DNA from: a virus
IMG/VR virus record: IMGVR_UViG_3300042988_000668
Span: 1 to 25,196 of that record
Direction: 5' to 3' (one strand)
DNA: 25,196 nt
The notes below the pieces were generated by a model. The model was not told the DNA's origin and did not search any database. It saw only the letters and a program-made list of their open reading frames with translations. The position numbers and the translations under genes were made by a program. This document shows, one piece after another, positions 2,838-23,843 of this stretch. Each line of letters begins with the position of its first letter. Position 1 is the stretch's first letter.

Positions 2838-3097
2838 TGAAATACTACGGAGAAGATATGAACAATCGTTGGATTGATTGCTACCTAGATGGAACACTAG
2901 AAGAGAAGAGACAAACTGCGAAGTTTGCCATTCAAGATGCAATTAGAGAGGCAATTAGAAGATTGGGGGATTTAGTCGAACGCCCAACGGAAGATGATGT
3001 TATTTGCGCTTGTAATTCTTGTTTTGAAGAAGCGCAGGATATTCTAAAAGATATGATAGGAGATGATAAGCATGAACAACGAGAAAGCACTAGATAA
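2837..3097 (+). CDS. Helical hypothetical protein with C-x-C-x2-C
   Basis: An 86-residue protein preceded by GGGAGGAA, with its ATG overlapping the previous TAA (TAATG). It has a basic-acidic helix (about 22-50) and a CACNSC cluster near residue 57 before a final acidic helix. The cluster could bind metal, but no second pair is present. The 3' end overlaps the next gene by 26 bases in another frame. I do not recognise a family. Confidence 0.65.
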   Translation: MKYYGEDMNNRWIDCYLDGTLEEKRQTAKFAIQDAIREAIRRLGDLVERPTEDDVICACNSCFEEAQDILKDMIGDDKHEQRESTR

Positions 3098-3365
3098 CAT
3101 CTGGCAGGACTACAAAGGATTAGAAAACCCTGCGGACTTTGAAGAACTTATGGCAGAGCATCACTTCAAAAATGGTTTTAGGGCGGGATATTCTTGTCTC
3201 AGAAGCCAGTGGTATCAATATTTTAATCGCATGATTAATATTGCTCACGCTCAAGGAACGCAAGAGAAAGGGTTTCGAGATTTAGTTGCCGTATTAAGCC
3301 AATGGAATCAGGACATGATTCTCAGTCAAAAGACAACCAGCAACCAGCCTAGCGGAAAGGAGTGA
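3072..3365 (+). CDS. Helical hypothetical protein
   Basis: A 97-residue protein. The ATG at 3072 is chosen over the ATG at 3063 because AGGAG ends at 3062, giving a nine-base spacer to 3072 and none to 3063. The segment 'HHFKNGFRAGYSCLRSQWYQYF' (split here as HHFKNGFRAGYSC plus LRSQWYQYF) recalls small phage proteins with a 'F..G..ag' helix, otherwise unassigned. It is aromatic-rich with no metal-binding pair. It lies inside the tightly packed cluster and overlaps the gene upstream. Confidence 0.65.
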   Translation: MNNEKALDNIWQDYKGLENPADFEELMAEHHFKNGFRAGYSCLRSQWYQYFNRMINIAHAQGTQEKGFRDLVAVLSQWNQDMILSQKTTSNQPSGKE

Positions 3366-3369
3366 GGGG

Positions 3370-3612
3370 ATGAAATTACACTTCAAAACTACTTATCTGG
3401 TTTGGGAGGATAAGCACCGAAGTCGATGCTGCTCTATCCCATGCCCCTGCTGCAAGGGCAGTATGTTTATTGAAAAGAATGAGTATCGAGATAATGAGTG
3501 GCAAACTTGCTGCTCAAGTTGTGGATTATGCTTCCCTAGTAATAAAAAGCGAGAGGACGCAGTTAAACTTAGCTTATCGTTACATAGTAAAATTACTAAA
3601 GGCACAAAATGA
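3370..3612 (+). CDS. Zinc-finger protein, Lar-like (restriction alleviation) candidate
   Basis: An 80-residue protein preceded by AAAGGAG. It has a cysteine-rich core: CPCCKG near residue 25, then W-x-x-C-C-S-S-C-G near residue 45, then a 'KKREDAVKLS' helix. The order CPxC(G/K)G ... CxxCG ... E-A is the layout of small phage zinc fingers in the Lar/restriction-alleviation family, whose first member in Rac prophage modulates EcoKI. The match is by motif only and the usual W-N ending is absent, so the specific role is tentative. Metal binding is more secure. Its stop overlaps the next ATG. Confidence 0.68.
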   Translation: MKLHFKTTYLVWEDKHRSRCCSIPCPCCKGSMFIEKNEYRDNEWQTCCSSCGLCFPSNKKREDAVKLSLSLHSKITKGTK

Positions 3613-3716
3613 CTAAGCCGAAAGCGATTACTTTCTGGTACGGCTGGATTTGGGGCTTTACTTACGGCCTAATAGCTTCCCTAGTTTTAGCTTTATTTTT
3701 CTACGAGGTAAAATGA
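3609..3716 (+). CDS. 35-aa single-span membrane peptide
   Basis: A very short gene, ATG at 3609 overlapping the previous stop (ATGA) and its own TGA overlapping the next ATG. The peptide has a short N-terminal part with two lysines, several tryptophans and tyrosines around residues 10-19, then a hydrophobic segment (about residues 14-32) ending F-F-Y-E-V-K. This is a plausible one-pass inner-membrane protein. The perfect two-sided start/stop coupling supports its reality despite its length. There is no strong Shine-Dalgarno sequence of its own, so coupling may be needed for expression. The function is unknown. Confidence 0.6.
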   Translation: MTKPKAITFWYGWIWGFTYGLIASLVLALFFYEVK

Positions 3717-4018
3717 AAACCTATAAAACCCTAGTTACCGAGGCTGCGGAGAAGTATGCGGATTGGCACGTTGATTTAAGCGATCCTGAAGCTGATGAGG
3801 AATCCATGAAAGAACATGCGTTTTGTTCGAATCATTGTGCGTCAGTACTGGAGTCGCCTGTAGTTAAAGAGCTAATCGAGCAGATTGCGAGGGAGGCACA
3901 ATTAAATAATTGTCCTGAGATTCTAATTAAGAAGGGTCAAATATCTTATTATCATACACCTTTTAATTGTGATTGGTGGGCTAAGTTTATGGGAGGGGAA
4001 GATGGCGATAAAGTATAA
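3713..4018 (+). CDS. WW-motif family protein B
   Basis: A 101-residue protein starting at the ATG at 3713 with GAGGT five bases upstream; a longer in-frame start at 3650 would run through the membrane peptide gene and is rejected. The helix 'VVKELIEQIAREAQ' is followed by a loop with a cysteine and then 'FNCDWWAKF' near the C-terminus. This order matches the proteins at 2266-2547 and 4213-4461. A CSNHC segment lies near residue 38, and the N-terminal third is acidic. No function is known to me. Confidence 0.7.
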   Translation: MKTYKTLVTEAAEKYADWHVDLSDPEADEESMKEHAFCSNHCASVLESPVVKELIEQIAREAQLNNCPEILIKKGQISYYHTPFNCDWWAKFMGGEDGDKV

Positions 4019-4220
4019 CCTCATAGCCAGTTACGGAATAGGAATAGCCTACTGTAAGTGCGGTGGCTACGTTAAGCAATGCGACAATTTAGGGAGCAAT
4101 CTCACAATAATCTGCATTAGATGTAAGAGCGTCTATGAATTGAACTTTGTAAAAGTACCTAAAAAAAGAATAGATCCTAAGTGGCTAAGAGCAATAATAA
4201 AGGAGGTGCAAGGTGAGTAA
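4002..4220 (+). CDS. Small zinc-ribbon protein
   Basis: A 72-residue protein. The ATG at 4002 lies within the end of the previous gene and has GGAGGGG just upstream; the in-frame ATG at 3969 lacks a ribosome binding site. Knuckles CKCGG (about residue 18) and CIRC (about residue 38) form a compact zinc ribbon with beta-like sequence between them, followed by a basic, helical tail (KVPKKRIDPKW). The fold call is good but the partner or nucleic-acid target is unknown. Confidence 0.72.
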   Translation: MAIKYNLIASYGIGIAYCKCGGYVKQCDNLGSNLTIICIRCKSVYELNFVKVPKKRIDPKWLRAIIKEVQGE

Positions 4221-4461
4221 GTCAATAGCGGAGCGATTTGCAGATTTTGCAGTTAAAATGGACTTCTCGACTTTCTCTGTAGTTGAGATAGTTAGTTGGT
4301 TAAGTAAGCAATCAGAGAATCGGCCAGTGTTCACGATTGATGAGGTTGAGGCGATTGCTAGAGAGTCCGCTTTTCGTATCGCTGTTAATGGAGAGCAAAC
4401 TAAAGGGCATTTTAATTGGTGGCAAGCCAAGAAGGCTGAATTATTGAAGGGGAAGGTATGA
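4213..4461 (+). CDS. WW-motif family protein C
   Basis: An 82-residue protein with a GTG start at 4213, supported by AGGAGGT six bases upstream. After an N-terminal helical part it shows 'VEAIARESAFRIA', a short loop and 'HFNWWQAKKAEL' near the C-terminus. This is the shortest of three proteins sharing helix + loop + F-x(0-2)-WW. Its stop overlaps the next ATG (ATGA). The shared motif suggests a common fold or partner, but the function is not known. Confidence 0.72.
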   Translation: MSKSIAERFADFAVKMDFSTFSVVEIVSWLSKQSENRPVFTIDEVEAIARESAFRIAVNGEQTKGHFNWWQAKKAELLKGKV

Positions 4462-4745
4462 GCGAGAATCCACTAGATGCTAAATTAGGGCCTACTTTAA
4501 TCTGGGTAATGAAAGATTTATCGTGGTTTGAATACCCGACTAAGATCGGGGAGATTAAAAATGTGCATGAAGCACAGCAAACATACTTGCAGCATAGTGC
4601 TTTAACTATGACCCTAGACCATCCGATTAAAAATACGCACCAATGTCAAAAGACTATACTAAAAAAATACAGACTTTTAAGGAAAAAAGTATTGGAACAA
4701 CTAGACGCAGATATTGAAGCGATTAAAGAGGCGTTTGTTATATGA
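4458..4745 (+). CDS. Hypothetical protein with C-terminal basic helix
   Basis: A 95-residue protein with GAAGGGGAAGGT before the ATG at 4458, which overlaps the previous stop. The first half is mixed and aromatic. The second half (from about residue 60) is a lysine-rich helix ending in an acidic segment. No conserved motif was recognised. The coding sequence contains a small CCCGA/TCGGG hairpin (4535-4550) whose right arm repeats 13 bases of the terminator at 546-579. It has no T run, so I give it no function. Confidence 0.68.
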   Translation: MSENPLDAKLGPTLIWVMKDLSWFEYPTKIGEIKNVHEAQQTYLQHSALTMTLDHPIKNTHQCQKTILKKYRLLRKKVLEQLDADIEAIKEAFVI

Positions 4746-5050
4746 CTAAGCGAAAGTTTGGCCGCCAGAAGCGGAGGCATTACAAGCAGGGGCTACACTG
4801 GAAACAACGAGGGATAGACTATACTGCGTTCTTAATTGGACAAAGGTTAGTCGATTACATAGCTAACACAAAAGAGTTTCAAGATGCCGTATCAACTACG
4901 ATTACTGAGTTTTTGCTAACTAATAACTCAACAATAAAATATGAGTCTGATGGCACTTTTAAGGAATACAAGGGATCGGGAATAGGGCCAGTATTCACGC
5001 CATTTGATTATGAATTTGTACAATCTGAGAATGCAAAGGAGATAGAATGA
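4742..5050 (+). CDS. Hypothetical protein with basic N-terminus
   Basis: A 102-residue protein starting at an ATG that overlaps the previous stop (ATGA). Its own ribosome binding site is weak (AGAGG about 12 bases away), so translation probably depends on coupling. Residues 1-25 are strongly basic and resemble a nucleic-acid-binding tail. The middle is a helix, and the end is acidic and aromatic. No family was recognised. Nucleic-acid contact is only an inference from charge. Confidence 0.65.
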   Translation: MTKRKFGRQKRRHYKQGLHWKQRGIDYTAFLIGQRLVDYIANTKEFQDAVSTTITEFLLTNNSTIKYESDGTFKEYKGSGIGPVFTPFDYEFVQSENAKEIE

Positions 5051-6419: not shown

Positions 6420-6968
6420 TCAAAGGGTTATTAGTTTTTCAATCTCTTTAGACTCAATTCTGGCAATCACCTTATCAGCGTAAGCTGTAGCGCCATGTTG
6501 GTCAACCCAATTTCGACCAGCGTTGTAAGCGGATAGCGCCTTTCGGTAATCACCGCGATAGTGTTTTAGGTTTTCTGACAACACCTTACAACCAATTTGA
6601 ATGTTTTTTTCTGGCTCAAATAGTTCTGGTAAATAGCCCTCAAAGCCATGTTCTACGGCAGTTTCTCCCATAACTTGCATGAGGCCATACGATACTGCTC
6701 TTAGGCGTATTTCAGAATCAAAGCTAATATTCTTATGGAATGGCCCAGGAAGGCTTGAAGGAAGTTTGTGCGCTAAGTACTTCTCAAAGAATCCATCTTC
6801 ATACCGGAATGCGTACCGATTCCCCCCAGACTCTTGTAGGATTACAGCAGCTACAACTTCACGCGCAAGGCCGTACTGCGTAGCGTATCCCCGGATTGCA
6901 ATTTCATAAGGTTTGGGTGTTGGCTCTTTAGTAAGAACTAATGACATAAGAACCGCTAAAAGTTTCAT
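6420..6968 (-). CDS. Lytic transglycosylase (endolysin candidate)
   Basis: A 182-residue protein with an SLT-type lysozyme-like domain. The catalytic glutamate is E46 in 'ILQESGG', followed by 'YGLMQVMGETA' (about 94-104) and 'ALSAYNAG' (about 144-151). These are the three hallmark motifs of family 1 lytic transglycosylases, which cleave the MurNAc-GlcNAc bond of peptidoglycan with formation of 1,6-anhydro-MurNAc. The N-terminus MKLLAVLMSLVLT is a short hydrophobic signal or anchor, implying Sec-dependent export. It starts four bases before the stop of the XhlA-like gene and is followed by lipoproteins, so it is likely the lysis enzyme. No other endolysin is visible. Confidence 0.88.
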   Translation of the reverse strand: MKLLAVLMSLVLTKEPTPKPYEIAIRGYATQYGLAREVVAAVILQESGGNRYAFRYEDGFFEKYLAHKLPSSLPGPFHKNISFDSEIRLRAVSYGLMQVMGETAVEHGFEGYLPELFEPEKNIQIGCKVLSENLKHYRGDYRKALSAYNAGRNWVDQHGATAYADKVIARIESKEIEKLITL

Positions 6969-7288
6969 TTAGGCATGGCTTGTAAAAACTCTACTGCCTT
7001 TACTCCAATTAGACCACATATTAAAAGTATGATAATTCTGTAAATCTTATCAGACTGACTTAGGATAACTCTTGCTAAAAGCCGATTCCCGATATTATTT
7101 TTAGTGAGTGCCTTTTTAATATCCTCATGCACGTTCTGCATAGAGTCCTGGTAGACTTTTTGATTTTGATTAAAAGCTTCAAATTCTTCTTTAATCCCTG
7201 TTAGTTCAGTAACAATGGTCTTATCAAAGTACTCACGCTGATCTTGGAACAAGACATCAATCTTTTGCCGTTGGCCATTAGCTTGCAT
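6965..7288 (-). CDS. XhlA-like coiled-coil protein with C-terminal TM
   Basis: A 107-residue protein. Residues about 5-75 are charged and helical with coiled-coil character. Residues about 82-102 form one hydrophobic segment (IYRIIILLICGLIGVKAVEF) near the C-terminus. This layout matches haemolysin XhlA-type phage proteins, which sit in the inner membrane and act with a holin and endolysin. Its stop overlaps the transglycosylase start and its ATG overlaps the stop of the ejection protein gene. A holin or holin-partner role is likely, though family membership is judged by architecture only. Confidence 0.72.
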   Translation of the reverse strand: MQANGQRQKIDVLFQDQREYFDKTIVTELTGIKEEFEAFNQNQKVYQDSMQNVHEDIKKALTKNNIGNRLLARVILSQSDKIYRIIILLICGLIGVKAVEFLQAMPK

Positions 7289-9384
7289 TAGGCTAGATCC
7301 TTTTTGTAATGATTTAAAACAGACGTTGCATACTGCCTACCCACTGGCCCTAAGAATCTACGAATATCAGCGAGGGTTTTTCCCTTATGGATCTTCAGCA
7401 GGTTCTTCACTCGGCCTTCTCCAGAGTGGTACGCTGTCAGAGCAAGCTCAACATCTCCGTTAAACTCTTTAAGGAGCTTTTGAAGGTAGTACGTTCCAAG
7501 TTGAATATTTGTCTCTGGGTCTTTTAAGTCAACTTTTGACAAGCCCAGCTCTTTAGCAAGTTGCTTTGCAGTTGCTGGCATAATCTGCATTAATCCAGTT
7601 GCACCAACGTTAGACTTAGCATTAGGATTGCCGTTTGATTCCTGTTTAATCACCGCACGAATCAGCGGATGCGTTTTAATCCCTGCTGTCTGCTTTAACT
7701 CCTTTGTTGTTGGCTTTGGAGCAAGGGAGGCTTGAAGGCTTTGAGCAACATCAAGGGCATCGCCTTGGCGAATTGTTGGTTTGGATTCTGAGACTCTTTG
7801 AGTTGGAGCTTTTTTAGGATTGTTAGCACTTGCTGTTGTTACAGTTCCAATAGCTTTTGTTGGAAGTTTAGTTGCTTGATCTGCAAGCCAAGCACCAGCT
7901 TTTGCTGCCTTTAATGCTTGAACTGGAATGGTATTCTTAACAACACTTGCTATACGTTCAGCGACTACCAGTGGGGCAATCGCAGGGGCAGCATAACTTG
8001 TTACACCAGCAGCTGCATTTTTAGGTAACGATAAAACATCTTTTAATCCGCCTTGGAACCCAAACTTTTTAGAGGCATTAAATGCCTTAGTTTCAAAATG
8101 AGAGGCCGCAGAATAAGCTTTATTAGCATCTTTAAATGCAGTTCCAATTTCTGGGATATTAGCAATCTTTCCTAGTGCTTCAACTTTACCAGTTAGTGAT
8201 TCAGCAATAGAACCATAAAGCTGATTAGCAAAGTTTTGGACTACTTGTTCTTCTGATGGAAGTCCTTTGTTAAATGCAGATTTGTTTATTTCTCCGTACT
8301 TTGTTTTTAAAGTTTTTAAATCTGCAACAGTTTTGCCTGAGCTGTTCCATTCATCAACAACGCCGGACATTTTTTTCGCAAGTCTCTCTGCAAGTGCTGG
8401 ATCTAGCTTTGCATGTTCTGCAATAAAATTAATTTGTGGTGTGAAATCTGGTTCAGTAGCAACTAGGTATGCTCCTTTTGTTTGTGGAGGGAGATCCATA
8501 TTATCTAAAAAAGCTTGCTCAATATTAGCAGCATTATCAATTGCGTTTCCAAGTTTTACACCTTGCTCTCCTTTAAAGACAGAAACTCGATTGGCTATCT
8601 TAGCAGGGGAATCAGTTATTTTTGTTCTATCAAAGAATCCAGCATCTCTTAAATCAGCAGCTTTTTGTTGATTGACTCCAACTTGCGAGCCACCTTCAAC
8701 TGGTCTTTTGGATTTAAGACCAGTATCATCTACGAATCCAGCAATCTTATCTTTAAGAATTGGGTTATAACCAACTAATTCATTCTCAATTCCCTTAGCA
8801 ACTTTATTCATGCCTAGAGATGTTCCTTTAGCGGCTAGGCCAACACCTTTGGCGATTGCTGTTCCAGCAAGGCCCATTCCAGTATTACGCCCTAAATCCG
8901 ACATATCCTGTTCCGCCGTTGTTGGCGCATCAGCACCAGTAGCTTGATTGAGTTTGTTGAATCCAAGTAATCCAGCAGCGCCACCCAAAGCAGCCCCAAG
9001 AGTTGCACCAGCAGGGATTGATAAGCCAAAAGTAAAAGGCGCTAATGGAGTTCCAAGAGTAGCTCCAGTACTTCCACCAACACCAGCACCAGCAATACCA
9101 GAGGCAATCGAGCCAGTTCCACGAAGAGTTTTTTCTAATGTTCCATCCTTTAGTGAGCTTACAGGGCTAGTAATTGAATCATAAACATTTCCAAGTCCAC
9201 TTGGGATTGAAGTTACTGCATCATACAACGCTCCAGGGGTATCTTTCACACCTTGCCATGCACTAGATAAAAAACCAGCTGGTTCTGGTTGATCAAAGTC
9301 AGCTTCAGTAAAGATAGTTTTTGATACCGGACTTGTTATAGATGGCGCTGGATCAAAATCTGCTTCAGTAAAAAGTGTTCCCAT
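7288..9384 (-). CDS. Ejection/internal virion protein with C-terminal transglycosylase
   Basis: A 698-residue protein. The N-terminus carries a repeated motif FTEADFD (residues 5-11 and 25-31). Residues about 92-145 are Gly/Ala-rich and hydrophobic, suited to membrane insertion. A long, mostly helical middle follows. Residues about 565-698 form an SLT domain with catalytic E582 ('IKQESNG'), 'GLMQIMP' (597-603) and 'AYHSG' (651-655). Podophage ejection proteins (for example T7 gp16) combine a muralytic domain with membrane-conduit segments, but in T7 that domain is N-terminal, whereas here it is C-terminal. Its gene neighbours are other ejection-type proteins. It would breach peptidoglycan during DNA entry. 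Confidence 0.85.
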
Positions 9385-12013: not shown

Positions 12014-13504
12014 TTAGGTGTACCCACCCTGATTATAAATCACTTCTATTGCTTGTAAACTCATTCTTTTTGTCGAGTAAGAGCCATCAATCCTGATTGA
12101 CGCACAACGCCCCATGCCATTAAGCCCCATTGTCGGCTGATAGAGCTTGTAGCTGGTATCTCCAGTTGTGGTTTCAGTATTTGTCGCTGTTACATCTTCA
12201 AAATCTACGTTCGCATCAAGCGTAAGACTTAGGTTTTCTGACTGGTAAACAATTGGCTTAGCTGAGACAAACTGCTTTAAATGCGCTCTGTCGCCGAAGT
12301 AGTTGTAGGCTGGGCGAAGCTTACAAGTTCTATTAGTGGCAGCATTAGTTAAAGGGTCTGTATCAACATATCCAGTCCAAGCCTTCATTACTCGGCCTTT
12401 AGTTGAACCAAAGTATAAATCTCCATTAAACACGCACCAGTGAAAAGCAGTAATTCCAGTCCATCTCCACCAACTACCAGTTACAGTATTCATTACAAAT
12501 TGCTCTGTACTAGCCCCAGAACTGGTAGGAATATTAAACACAAGCATATTGCCTTGAGGATAGAACACTCCACAAGCATAATCAGAATTAGATCCAACAC
12601 TAAGAATTTCTTTAAAGCTTGGGTTAATCTTATCCGACAAAGGAACAATATTTGGATCGCCTTTAAGAACATCTGACAACAGGATAATTCCTTGATAAGT
12701 CATAATAACAAGGTTTGCGCCCCAATAAATAAAGGAACGCGCTCCAATTGCAGGAGGCATATAAAACTGACCAACTAGCGACCAAGTTGTAGAGCCTGGA
12801 TAATCGCCCTGATAAAGCAAAACTTCCCCTTGATCAGAGATTGCAGCAAAATAAACTTGTCCATCAAGATTATTTTGCTGAACTGTTCCAATAAATAAGA
12901 GCTTCCCACCTAACTTGAAAAGAGATTGAAAATCAAAAGAAGTTGCTGCGCCAGTGATTGAATCTACTCCAAGATACCACATAGTTGCAGTAGACGCCTG
13001 AATGAAGTAAATGCGGTTCTTGTATGTTGTTGGGGTTCTAAGAGTAGTAACAGTAACCCCTGTAATCCCTAGAGCCACGTTAAAAGCAGACCCATTCCAA
13101 GTCGCGAGATAACTTGTACCTGCCGTAGTAATTGGAAACCAGATCCGATTCCTAAAATTTACAGTCCAAGTAGGAGAAGCAACAGGGAAGCCAGCATCAA
13201 TAAGACTGTTTACGGTAGCCCCTGCGGTACTAAAAATATATGTTTCACTAATATTATCTTGAGCCACTAAATGCTTAGTGCCATCTTGAGCATTAAATTC
13301 CCCAAGAGTAAGAACTTTTGTAGAGTCTGTAGTATCGGTTTGTGCAAAAGATGTTGTTCCTTTCCGAAGATCAACGCTTCCACCATCTGAGAAAAAGTTA
13401 ATCGCTTCTACTGCATACGATTCTTCCATCTCTGAAATTGGATCTTTAGTATTCCACCCTAAAACTGGAGGAAGGATAGTAGCTGATCGCGCAGTATCAA
13501 CCAT
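12014..13504 (-). CDS. Tail nozzle / packaged-DNA stabilisation-type protein
   Basis: A 496-residue beta-rich protein. The N-terminus 'ILPPVLGWNTKDPISEM' followed by 'AVEAINFFSDGGSVDLRKG' is the signature of podophage tail nozzle/tubular proteins (P22 gp10-like and related), which begin with a 'G.Nt...p...m....A....N.f.....v.lRkG' pattern. The rest consists of repeated W/Y-rich strands compatible with a beta-propeller. The protein would sit below the adaptor ring and close the DNA channel. Its position, two genes downstream of the adaptor, is as expected. Exact equivalence to gp10 or T7 gp12 cannot be settled here. Confidence 0.82.
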   Translation of the reverse strand: MVDTARSATILPPVLGWNTKDPISEMEESYAVEAINFFSDGGSVDLRKGTTSFAQTDTTDSTKVLTLGEFNAQDGTKHLVAQDNISETYIFSTAGATVNSLIDAGFPVASPTWTVNFRNRIWFPITTAGTSYLATWNGSAFNVALGITGVTVTTLRTPTTYKNRIYFIQASTATMWYLGVDSITGAATSFDFQSLFKLGGKLLFIGTVQQNNLDGQVYFAAISDQGEVLLYQGDYPGSTTWSLVGQFYMPPAIGARSFIYWGANLVIMTYQGIILLSDVLKGDPNIVPLSDKINPSFKEILSVGSNSDYACGVFYPQGNMLVFNIPTSSGASTEQFVMNTVTGSWWRWTGITAFHWCVFNGDLYFGSTKGRVMKAWTGYVDTDPLTNAATNRTCKLRPAYNYFGDRAHLKQFVSAKPIVYQSENLSLTLDANVDFEDVTATNTETTTGDTSYKLYQPTMGLNGMGRCASIRIDGSYSTKRMSLQAIEVIYNQGGYT

Positions 13505-16850: not shown

Positions 16851-17255
16851 TTAAGCTTCCTTAGCGTAAACTGAGACTAACCAGTCCGTAGAACTCAATC
16901 GAGTACATACGTTACCAGCAGCAGCAGCACACGTTACAGCAGCACCAGCAGATCCGCCGTTAAGCGTTCCACTTGCAGAGTGCGGAAAAATGTTAATTGC
17001 ATTAGCACCATTGTTTTGAACAATAACTGGCTGACCAATTGGAGAGTCTGGCAACTTAACGCCAGTACTTGCAGCAGCAGTACTAACCACGTTTACCAAG
17101 CTAACCAAAGCCAACGCATCACCAATAACCGTTCCAGCAGCTGTTAAGCCAGTAGAAACGCTTTTGGTGGGAGCAGCACTAATAGTTTGAGTAGCGATAA
17201 CACTCGCTGCCTGACTAGGTATTCCTGTTGCCATTAAATCTGATATTTCACTCAT
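16851..17255 (-). CDS. Small beta-domain virion protein
   Basis: A 134-residue protein. The N-terminus 'DLMATGIPSQAASVIA' resembles the start of the 187-aa protein (L-M-x2-G-x3-Q-x-A-x2-I). From about residue 50 a beta domain runs 'GVKLPDSPIGQPVIVQNNG', 'INIFPHSASGTLNGG', and ends '...SSTDWLVSVY'. This is a frequent phage fibre/decoration domain (LP....G....v.N.g...i.iyP.sG..inG.......W). It is the uninterrupted counterpart of the domain that is split by Cys-rich blocks in the protein at 21880-23463. Confidence 0.75.
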   Translation of the reverse strand: MSEISDLMATGIPSQAASVIATQTISAAPTKSVSTGLTAAGTVIGDALALVSLVNVVSTAAASTGVKLPDSPIGQPVIVQNNGANAINIFPHSASGTLNGGSAGAAVTCAAAAGNVCTRLSSTDWLVSVYAKEA

Positions 17256-21412: not shown

Positions 21413-21787
21413 TTAATAGGTTCCTCTACGCTTAACGATAAACAACCCATCATCACATAGAAATCTTTCCCCTAACGTAACTCTACGAGCATTACCAAAA
21501 ACTCTGAGGATGGAAATCTTGGCGCATCCGTTAACATTTCGCTTGTCATTACAGACTAGGGATTTTACGCCTGAACATTTATGATGGCCCCAATAATAAA
21601 CGCCAGCTTTGCGTGAGACTTTTACTACAACATCTTGCTTAGGGTCTGTCGGGAATTGCTGCCCCTGGTTGTATGAGTACTCCCAATAGTGGAGTGTTGA
21701 TTCTATCGTTCTAGGGAGCGCCATCGATAGTGTCGGGCAAAGTAAGCATAGAGATAGCAATAAGCTTTTGAAGGTCGTCATAATCAT
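21413..21787 (-). CDS. Secreted small cysteine-containing protein
   Basis: A 124-residue protein with an N-terminal Sec signal peptide (MTTFKSLLLSLCLLCPTLSM then A-L-P) and predicted cleavage after SMA. The start may be the ATG at 21787 or at 21781. The mature part of about 100 residues has four cysteines, in 'HHKCSG', 'LVCND', 'GCAK' and 'FLCDDG', suited to two disulphides. It is basic and beta-like overall. It follows the Cys-rich fibre-like gene, so both products may act outside the cytoplasm. No family was recognised. Confidence 0.75.
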   Translation of the reverse strand: MIMTTFKSLLLSLCLLCPTLSMALPRTIESTLHYWEYSYNQGQQFPTDPKQDVVVKVSRKAGVYYWGHHKCSGVKSLVCNDKRNVNGCAKISILRVFGNARRVTLGERFLCDDGLFIVKRRGTY

Positions 21788-21899
21788 CCCATAAATCTAA
21801 AACTAACTTACCTTTACAACATTCTGGAAACTCGTGATTGCATAGTCGTTCGTTAAACTCATCAAATTCCTTTTGTGCTCTATCTCTTTGCCATTTCAT
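21711..21899 (-). CDS. 62-aa charged hypothetical protein
   Basis: A short ORF overlapping the end of the Cys-rich protein gene by 20 bases and the start of the secreted protein gene by 77 bases. The peptide has a charged helix 'MKWQRDRAQKEFDEFNERL', then 'CNHEFPECC' and an acidic segment. The ribosome binding site is poor. The long overlap and short size make it uncertain, but the composition is protein-like and it fills the frame gap between two coupled genes. Confidence 0.48.
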   Translation of the reverse strand: MKWQRDRAQKEFDEFNERLCNHEFPECCKGKLVLDLWDDYDDLQKLIAISMLTLPDTIDGAP

Positions 21900-23463
21900 G
21901 CCAGCGCTTTGCTACTGAATAGGTTCCTGAACAACTAGAAAAATAGTTTGCTGCATTACAGCTTGATTCATCACCATAACCAGAACACGAACCACCACCA
22001 TCACAACTAGATCCATTCCATGAACAGTTAGTGTAATTCTGAGTGCAGCCACTAGTAGATCCGCAAGTTGATTGATTGCCGTTATAAGCTGAGCAATCAG
22101 CAGTTAAGTGAAAGTAGACTAACATGGTTGAATCTTTATAAACTGGCAGATTTAGCGAGCTACCGCCATCAATGTCATATCCAGAATACGGCACGATAGT
22201 ACAATCAGCTCCACCTGTTGCTACGTTTTTAATTCTATACTCGCGCCCATCGGGAGGTAAATTCGGCAGGGTTAGATTAAGAACACTCGACCAGCTGCAT
22301 CCAGTCTCATTTCCGCAATCAGTTGAGTTAGTAATCCCTGGGCAGCTAGGTGTTCCAGTGCATGCTGTTCCGTAATATCCAGAACAATTTCCAGTGTAGT
22401 AAGTACCAGTACAGGAATAGCTATCATAGCTTCCAGAGCATGAATCGTATGGACTACCAGAACAACTAGTAAAATAACTTCCTGAGCAATTAGGATCAGA
22501 CCACGAACACCCGCTTGTTGCCTCACAAGTTGTCTGGTCGCCATTGTAAACTGAGCAATCCGAAAAGTTGGAAGTACAGCCACTATGCCCTGAGCAATCC
22601 ATATCATTAGTTAATGAACTACAATCAAAGTAATTAACAGTACAGCCAGAAGTCATCGAGCAAGTTGATTCATCAAAACCAGAGCAACTTTGAGGATTAT
22701 TTGACCACGCGCAACTACCACCATAGGAGTCATCACTAGCTAAGCAGCTCGATTCATCATATCCAGAGCATGCGGAAGTATCAGCAGTACAGCCAGAAGC
22801 CCCAAGGCAATTCCCCATATTGTATTCAGAGTTATACACTGAGCAACTACTTCCAGGATCCCACGTGCAGCCACCATGCGAGTTCCTAGCTTCACACGCT
22901 GCCTGACCTGAGCCAGTATAGCTTGAACAGGCGTTAGAGGGCGTTCCGGTGCATGCTGCCGCACTTGTCCCATCGCACAGCACGTTTGTTGTTGCTGTGC
23001 TTAGAGTTTGACTAGACGTTACAAGAATAGTTTTATTCTCAAGCGTTCCTTGATTGCTTAGGGTTGACTGCCCTTGACTAGCAGAACCTGCGCTTACATT
23101 ACCAGCAAAACCACCCCAACCATAATGAGCAAACCCGGAAGGATAATTGTAAGAATAAAGCGATCCCCCTGTTGTATAGGTAGCAATGCCATTACCGCCC
23201 GATTCATACAGGTTAATTCCACCACTGGAATCAAACCCGATAGCCCCTTTAAGAGTGCCGCTAAAATACGCATCAATCCAGGAGTTAGTTCCAGTATTAT
23301 CAAACCGCAAGTGCCTGCTAGTGCCAGGTGTATAGTTACTTGCAGCCTTAGAGATCGTTTGAGTATCTGTGAAAGTGTTAGCCCTAAGCGTTGCGCCTGG
23401 GTTGACTGGTTGCGCTATCGCCACACTGGAGATAAACAACAGGGTTAGAAGCCTTAACACCAT
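21880..23463 (-). CDS. Secreted fibre-like protein with Cys-rich repeat inserts
   Basis: A 527-residue protein. Residues 1-18 form a Sec signal peptide (LRLLTLLFISSVAIA then QP). Residues about 22-150 look like a tail-fibre body (NPGATLRANTFTDTQTIS ... SIG-like 'GAIGFDSSGG'). A beta domain follows: strand 'SSQTLSTATTNVLCDG', then 'LNLTLPNLPPDGREYRIKN' (396-413), 'DCTIVPYSGYDIDGGSS' (420-436), strand to about 454, and a final strand near 515-521. Two Cys-rich blocks (about 168-391 and 456-513) interrupt it. I count 38 cysteines in total. The ATG has AAGGGAG upstream and overlaps the preceding stop. It is likely exported and disulphide-bonded, with the partner unknown. Confidence 0.82.
   Translation of the reverse strand: MVLRLLTLLFISSVAIAQPVNPGATLRANTFTDTQTISKAASNYTPGTSRHLRFDNTGTNSWIDAYFSGTLKGAIGFDSSGGINLYESGGNGIATYTTGGSLYSYNYPSGFAHYGWGGFAGNVSAGSASQGQSTLSNQGTLENKTILVTSSQTLSTATTNVLCDGTSAAACTGTPSNACSSYTGSGQAACEARNSHGGCTWDPGSSCSVYNSEYNMGNCLGASGCTADTSACSGYDESSCLASDDSYGGSCAWSNNPQSCSGFDESTCSMTSGCTVNYFDCSSLTNDMDCSGHSGCTSNFSDCSVYNGDQTTCEATSGCSWSDPNCSGSYFTSCSGSPYDSCSGSYDSYSCTGTYYTGNCSGYYGTACTGTPSCPGITNSTDCGNETGCSWSSVLNLTLPNLPPDGREYRIKNVATGGADCTIVPYSGYDIDGGSSLNLPVYKDSTMLVYFHLTADCSAYNGNQSTCGSTSGCTQNYTNCSWNGSSCDGGGSCSGYGDESSCNAANYFSSCSGTYSVAKRWHEMAKR
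21925..22098 (-). repeat. Second Cys-rich repeat block (protein-level)
   Basis: Codes for residues about 456-513. Units are 'CSAYNGNQSTCGSTSGC', then 'CSWNGSSCDGGGSC' and 'CSGYGDESSCNAANYFSSC'. They share the pattern C-S-x-Y-x(4-5)-C-x(3-6)-[SG]-[GS]-C with the larger block at 22291-22962. The block lies before the last predicted strand of the fibre beta domain. The repeats are conserved at protein level, not as exact DNA copies. Confidence 0.75.
22291..22962 (-). repeat. First Cys-rich tandem repeat block (protein-level)
   Basis: Codes for residues about 168-391, about eight units of 20-30 residues. Typical units are 'CSGFDESTCSMTSGC', 'CSSLTNDMDCSGHSGC' and 'CSVYNGDQTTCEATSGC', each followed by 4-8 residues before the next Cys, often W or N. 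Consensus: C-S-x-[YFL]-x(3-6)-C-x(3-8)-G-[GS]-C-[ST]-[WVSA]. A degenerate Ser/Gly/Tyr-rich stretch (about 326-370) has Cys every 7-9 residues. The layout recalls small disulphide-bonded repeat modules. Confidence 0.8.
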
Positions 23464-23843
23464 TGGATCAGCACTCCCTTGCTGCCTGTTCCGGCGTGAA
23501 TTGCATTAACTGCGCCGGTGTAATTTATCCCATTACACGATAGCGGAAGCGTTCCGTATTGGAATACTGGAATCTTAGAAGTGGTAGCAGTTGAGCCAAA
23601 CGAAACGTAGATCGTAGTATCTGATAGATTAATCAACCAGCCAGCACGTCTTGAACTATTTGATGCTAGGATTGTACTACTAGAAGTCGTTACGTTTACA
23701 GCCACCTCAGTAACGCTTGAAGTTTTTGGAGCATTAGCATTTACTACCTGTCTTAGTACACCACTCCCCTGGTCTTCTGCTTCGACAACAAAGTCTGGGT
23801 TATTCGAGCCCCATCCGTTACTAACAGTCGGATTATTCGCCAT
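23454..23843 (-). CDS. Small beta-rich head/fibre protein
   Basis: A 129-residue protein starting inside the last codons of the portal gene. 'TSSSTILASNSSRRAGWLIN' and 'SDTTIYVSFGSTATTSK' followed by 'NYTGAVNAIHAGTGSKGVLI' is a pattern widespread in small phage virion proteins (il..N..R.g..i.N.sd..iyv.fG.ta.ts......Y.G.v.ai...g...v...e). It is likely a head-surface or head-fibre protein. Its stop overlaps the start of the Cys-rich secreted protein. Confidence 0.75.
   Translation of the reverse strand: MANNPTVSNGWGSNNPDFVVEAEDQGSGVLRQVVNANAPKTSSVTEVAVNVTTSSSTILASNSSRRAGWLINLSDTTIYVSFGSTATTSKIPVFQYGTLPLSCNGINYTGAVNAIHAGTGSKGVLIQWC

Follow-up and report, generated by a model that had tools for sequence, protein, structure and literature searches.

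The window, which is the whole stretch of DNA analyzed here, comprises the 25,196 bases of an IMG/VR virus record that may be a fragment. A preliminary description had reported an open reading frame at 21880-23463; this frame is real, with the correction that it lies on the minus strand, and its 527-aa product begins MVLRLLTLLFISSVAIAQ. By PHROGs profiles, its same-strand neighbors are similar to portal and major head proteins, which places the gene in a late structural cluster, as expected of a receptor-binding fiber. Given this position between portal and capsid genes, the product could be a head spike. The 124-aa protein encoded directly after it occupies roughly the place that a thioredoxin gene holds in relatives, is not itself a thioredoxin, and gave no match in a search for its family. 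Elsewhere in the window we noticed a transglycosylase-type gene at 7288-9384 (SLT domain, E 2.6e-33), a smaller gene of this type, judged by eye, at 6420-6968, and a gene at 12014-13504 with the PHROGs family label 'amidase' (phrog_5107), which is possibly mistaken: Pfam detects no amidase domain in its product.

Table 1. Coordinates of the fiber gene, its parts and related genes in the window (residue numbers refer to the 527-aa protein).
Feature	Coordinates	Strand	Basis or remark
134-aa protein used for comparison in the preliminary description	16851..17255	minus	Weak Phage_depo_C and scaffold-profile matches
124-aa protein directly after the fiber gene	21413..21787	minus	Signal-like N-terminus, 4 Cys in the mature part
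527-aa fiber or spike protein, predicted to be disulfide-rich; whole gene including stop	21880..23463	minus	Open reading frame and homologs
XD1-type scaffold segment 3, residues 515-527 (YSVAKRWHEMAKR)	21883..21921	minus	Alignment, model and structure alignment
Cys block 2, Cys457-Cys511, 8 Cys	21931..22095	minus	Tip of the final hairpin
XD1-type scaffold segment 2, residues 393-455	22099..22287	minus	Model and structure alignment
Cys block 1, Cys171-Cys389, 28 Cys	22297..22953	minus	Flanked by scaffold strands 160-163 and 395-398
XD1-type scaffold segment 1, residues 143-164	22972..23037	minus	Model and structure alignment
N-terminal beta region, residues 28-125	23089..23382	minus	Homologous to the fiber shaft in relatives; modeled with low confidence
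Signal-peptide-like N-terminus, residues 1-17 (MVLRLLTLLFISSVAIA, then QPV)	23413..23463	minus	Same layout in L006
Small structural-type protein upstream	23454..23843	minus	Homologous to the gene at the equivalent place in L006

Sequence searches with the 527-aa protein against Pfam, PHROGs, NCBIfam and PDB gave no match. Pfam Phage_depo_C (PF25692) matched neither this protein nor its scaffold with the blocks deleted, and the block-deleted scaffolds had sub-threshold matches only in Pfam and PHROGs. An AF2 monomer model (overall pLDDT 66.6, pTM 0.36; mostly 70-88 from residue 145 on) was compared with known structures. Within residues 138/145-527, the model forms a beta-sandwich of about 90-100 residues, of which 87-97 superpose on XD1-type domains in PDB with an rmsd of 1.7-2.7 Å and Z of 9.7-12.9 (VIA-align). 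The matches are the C-terminus of the Solidus tailspike, residues 73-178 of CBA120 TSP4, T4 gp10 (5iv5), T4 gp9 (1qex), and the Pa223 capsid spike; a Foldseek search of the model against PDB alone returned no match at E < 0.001. Because the superposition covers 87-97 residues only, both Cys blocks occupy loops, two in all, and take no part in the domain core. The preliminary description had proposed that the blocks are inserted into loops of one phage beta domain, an idea that blocks lying in the core would have contradicted. The superposition supports it, as do two relatives, L025 and L044, in which block 2 is missing or reduced. In the model, both blocks would be insertions into a single domain of about 95 residues of the T4 gp9/gp10 (XD1) type.

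The name XD1 was given in the description of TSP4, where gp9 is the nearest match of the domain (PMC8825819). The window scaffold shares its fold with T4 gp9, T4 gp10 and the TSP4 domain (92-97 residues, rmsd 2.2-2.6 Å, Z 9.7-12.1) and differs from them in two ways: its XD1-type domain is C-terminal, and two of its loops carry Cys-rich inserts of about 220 and 55 residues, none of which are described for the three known proteins. XD1 loops thus tolerate hundreds of extra residues, a property useful for protein display. In a BFVD search, stretches of about 55-60 residues also matched predicted proteins of the giant viruses Fadolivirus, Edafosvirus and Pithovirus with an rmsd of 1.2-1.4 Å.

The preliminary description had also pointed to a 134-aa protein as an uninterrupted version of the same domain. 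This protein exists, at the coordinates it gave and on the minus strand. BLASTP between it and the interrupted domain gave nothing significant, and hhalign matched it to the block-deleted scaffold weakly (E 2.5e-4, probability 43%). It scored 16.1 bits against Phage_depo_C, below the cut-off of 25, and its model (pLDDT 40) was too poor to compare. These matches give weak support to a resemblance between the two proteins.

The two blocks are dense in cysteine. Of the 38 Cys in the protein, 29 lie at residues 163-389 and 8 at 457-511, in agreement with the blocks that had been placed at about 168-391 and 456-513 from the sequence. In block 1, repeats that follow CSxYx(4-6)Cx4GCxW lead into a CxGxY ladder; hhalign (E 4e-12) shows homology between block 2 and part of this block. 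The fold searches of the whole model showed no known fold matching the blocks themselves, although the length of the model may hide one.

A plain protein scan found one relative, L001, which is 47% identical and comes from an otherwise different phage. Since the repeats are low in complexity, we turned to a degenerate DNA pattern for the repeat CSx[YF]x6Cx4GC[ST]W, scanned IMG/VR for it and read the matches in frame. Profiles built from these matches, a search that the preliminary description had proposed, recovered a related fiber in about 24 distinct IMG/VR contigs. No relative was found in INPHARED, PLSDB or genome_contigs (84,980 species genomes), where the BLAST low-complexity filter may hide matches, nor when divergent fiber members were tried against INPHARED. 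Two unannotated relatives occur among predicted structures of uncultured Caudovirales. Most of the relatives' fibers are 650-1400 aa long, against 501-527 aa in the window and L006. Many records are near-identical copies (for example L032/L033, L035/L036 and L029/L031), so the independent lineages number only about seven besides the window/L006 pair: a podophage-like group, L001, L025, L043, L044, L152 and L153, as grouped by gene neighborhood rather than by a tree.

Comparison of these relatives showed that the cysteines come in multiples of four. In the fibers counted, the number of Cys is 24, 28 or 32 in block 1 and 0, 4 or 8 in block 2; the fibers of L152 and L153, which were found later, have 28 and 8. 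Block 2 is naturally absent in L025 and half-size in L044, so it can be present or absent. Going by the alignment, each gain appears to add a 3-Cys unit and one extra Cys in the CxGxY ladder. None of the 24 core Cys of block 1 varies across the 17 aligned sequences; this invariance, the homologs in about 24 contigs and the low dN/dS of the blocks (below) make a chance pattern untenable. There are no CxxC or CxC knuckles in the 527-aa protein, where Cys spacing is never below 6, and on this ground we rejected a zinc-knuckle or metal-cluster protein. The even Cys counts, their invariance and the lack of CxxC knuckles together favor disulfides over metal binding, and the Cys of the blocks are predicted to form disulfides.

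The relatives revealed a second gene that appears to belong to this system. A thioredoxin-fold gene follows the fiber gene in 20 of 22 fiber records; in L152, an 85-aa ORF lies between the two. PF00085 alone has a match in 18 of the 22. Four partners combine a Pfam match above cut-off with a CxxC motif and so belong to the thioredoxin/glutaredoxin superfamily (PF00085 in L001, L025 and L153; PF00462 in L044), and the other partners tested fall just below the Pfam cut-off, with E of about 1e-5 to 1e-3. The motifs found are CPYC, CPNC, CGNC, CPHC, CPKC and CSFC. A reciprocal scan from the thioredoxin side found the fiber upstream at 16 of 16 loci, in two of which only the 3' end of the fiber gene is present, at a contig edge. 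L152 and L153, which were found with the Cys-block profile alone, carry the thioredoxin gene as well. The two records without it are L006 and the window, where PF00085 had no match in the 25,196-base, possibly fragmentary record. The preliminary description had observed the fiber itself correctly and missed both the linked gene in relatives and its absence here.

Near relatives also exchange the two genes as a unit. The flanks of L063, L064 and L065 share 78-84% DNA identity with L041. The fiber and thioredoxin stretch is deleted in L064 and replaced in L065 (L063 has the same genes) by genes that include a Gly_rich_2 protein and no thioredoxin. The partner gene therefore has the position expected of a chaperone gene, directly 3' of the fiber in 20 of 22 records and lost or replaced together with it in L063-L065. 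The four replacement genes of L065 (5920-8556), one of them Gly_rich_2, mark an exchange site for surface proteins.

Signal-like N-termini, judged from hydrophobicity and the appearance of a cleavage site, were seen on only three of the fibers examined: those of the window, L006 and L001. The term 'secreted' in the preliminary description is hence plausible. Both fiber records that lack a thioredoxin gene (the window and L006) have a signal-like fiber N-terminus, and in L001 the full-length fiber of 1388 aa and its thioredoxin (CPHC) both have one. Signal and missing thioredoxin thus form a complementary pattern. In L152, whose Cys-rich fiber has no such N-terminus, a structural-type protein at 3014-4345 does (MKKFLLKLLTATFTLNAFA).

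The interpretation that we prefer, with a probability of roughly 0.6, is that the gene encodes a distal virion fiber or spike whose XD1 domain carries an inserted, disulfide-rich head, and that this fiber comes with a folding route. Its product would form the distal part of the fiber or spike, on the tail or on the capsid head, and two XD1 loops would be replaced by disulfide-cross-linked repeat modules. These modules may build a compact, resistant head that binds a receptor through a conserved rather than variable surface. Such a head needs correctly formed disulfides, so the fiber would travel with a means of folding it. In most of these phages this role would fall to the thioredoxin/glutaredoxin-fold protein encoded directly downstream, as a redox chaperone dedicated to the fiber: an oxidase, an isomerase, or a protein that holds thiols in the reduced state until lysis, an activity and direction that we infer. 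In the window and L006, the fiber with its signal-like N-terminus probably uses host periplasmic Dsb enzymes instead. As judged from sequence and gene order, this mechanism of fiber and redox partner is probable. Several points count against it. A cytoplasmic thioredoxin normally reduces disulfides rather than forming them, and a signal peptide on a virion fiber is unusual. The window lacks a thioredoxin gene of its own, and the linkage comes from only about seven independent lineages. The position between portal and capsid genes would also suit a head spike, and the overall scores of the model (pLDDT 66.6, pTM 0.36) count on the same side.

A broader form of this interpretation, to which we give somewhat less than an even chance, is that the disulfide-lattice module in XD1 and its thioredoxin-fold partner make up an oxidative-folding unit of the phages' own, a cassette that has spread between unrelated tailed phages. 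It would work by three interchangeable routes: a cytoplasmic fiber with a cytoplasmic partner, an exported fiber with an exported partner, and an exported fiber with host Dsb.

It is also conceivable, if unlikely, that the blocks are mainly structural, a disulfide lattice that hardens the fiber tip against harsh or proteolytic surroundings and binds nothing. The invariant Cys, the conserved Ser/Gly/Tyr-rich spacers of low complexity and the changes in repeat copy number all suit a lattice. However, several non-Cys positions are invariant across very different phages, and the genes that replace fiber and thioredoxin in near relatives include a glycine-rich, adhesin-type protein; together these suggest a role in surface contact.

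We consider it similarly improbable that the protein of the window and L006, though built from a fiber domain, does not belong to the virion and is instead exported to act at the host envelope, for example in superinfection exclusion. The signal-like N-terminus, the shortness of the protein relative to most relatives and the second exported protein adjoining it (21413-21787) speak for export. Yet the gene keeps its position among head and portal genes, the protein keeps part of the shaft homology, and L001 shows that a signal-like N-terminus can occur on a full-length fiber.

That the thioredoxin is a general passenger of the late genes, unrelated to the Cys blocks, seems to us very unlikely. 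Phage gene order is conserved by descent and many of the records represent one lineage, which speaks for a passenger. But in near relatives the gene disappears jointly with the fiber, PF00085 has no match in any of 48 capsid-protein relatives without this fiber, and none of the 16 loci of the reciprocal scan places the same thioredoxin next to a Cys-free fiber. Moreover, it stands beside the fiber in L001, L025, L043, L044, L152 and L153, and when the thioredoxins of four of these outlying lineages were aligned, their identity to those of the main group was just 18-25%.

The preliminary description had suggested that the loops diversify receptor or surface binding, and the conservation of the blocks does not bear this out. 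With Cys excluded, mean identity is 0.61 and 0.55 in the blocks, 0.46 in the N-terminal part, 0.57 in the scaffold before the blocks and 0.52 in the middle scaffold, so the blocks are the most conserved aligned part apart from the short strand region before them. Rather than showing the excess variation in the display region that marks hypervariable binding proteins, they exceed shaft and middle scaffold in conservation. Their dN/dS is 0.07-0.23 in pairs with estimable dS; the blocks are under purifying selection. We therefore consider variable display loops very unlikely. The loops of a fiber-tip domain are a natural site for such display and the number of repeat units does vary between phages, but the alignment shows no positions that are conspicuously hypervariable.

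Returning to a disulfide-rich virion fiber with its own folding route, we compared it with known systems. Dense disulfide modules are a hallmark of animal extracellular proteins. The PedC/BrcD disulfide isomerases of bacteriocin maturation (TIGR01295) are co-encoded with disulfide-containing bacteriocins and, as is proposed for the fiber partner, are dedicated thioredoxin-fold helpers linked to one such product. They are of a different family, and the fiber partner would serve a structural protein of a phage; the L152 partner has a weak TIGR01295 profile match (E 6e-5), far below cut-off. Tail-fiber chaperones such as T4 gp38, Mu Tfa and Alteromonas V22 gp27 are encoded just downstream of the fiber (PMC7289586), as the thioredoxin partner is, and the partner is gained or lost together with its fiber. 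The partner differs in having a thioredoxin/glutaredoxin fold with CxxC, and the help proposed for it is redox help rather than trimerization alone. The lambda spanin is an exported phage protein that depends on disulfide formation in the host envelope (Berry 2013, as cited in PMC13412088), but it is a lysis protein with intermolecular disulfides, unlike a fiber with 38 Cys. Where dsbA has been reported as a phage-host factor, its effect was explained through the host surface and not through phage fibers (PMC13412088, PMC10249906).

The preliminary description had known of no described example. The literature that we searched likewise holds no description of dense disulfide modules in a tailed-phage fiber, of this fiber, or of a fiber-thioredoxin pair. 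The family of fibers with loop-inserted modules of disulfide type and a linked redox partner is real and, in the sources searched, undescribed. The linkage suggests that phages bring disulfide-folding machinery for a part of the virion, or borrow that of the host by exporting the fiber. If it holds, it shows how a disulfide-rich head is possible in a virus that is put together in a reducing cytoplasm, and signal-less fibers should need their own thioredoxin and signal-bearing ones host DsbA.

Two further features were seen among the relatives. In L044, a second fiber gene (3523-4860) follows the glutaredoxin-type gene; it shares its N-terminus with the Cys-rich fiber of that record and has no Cys block in the part read. 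In the long fibers of L039 (5907-9374) and L042 (4142-7069), the region close to the N-terminus contains collagen-like repeats, GPQGPQG or GPAGPQG.
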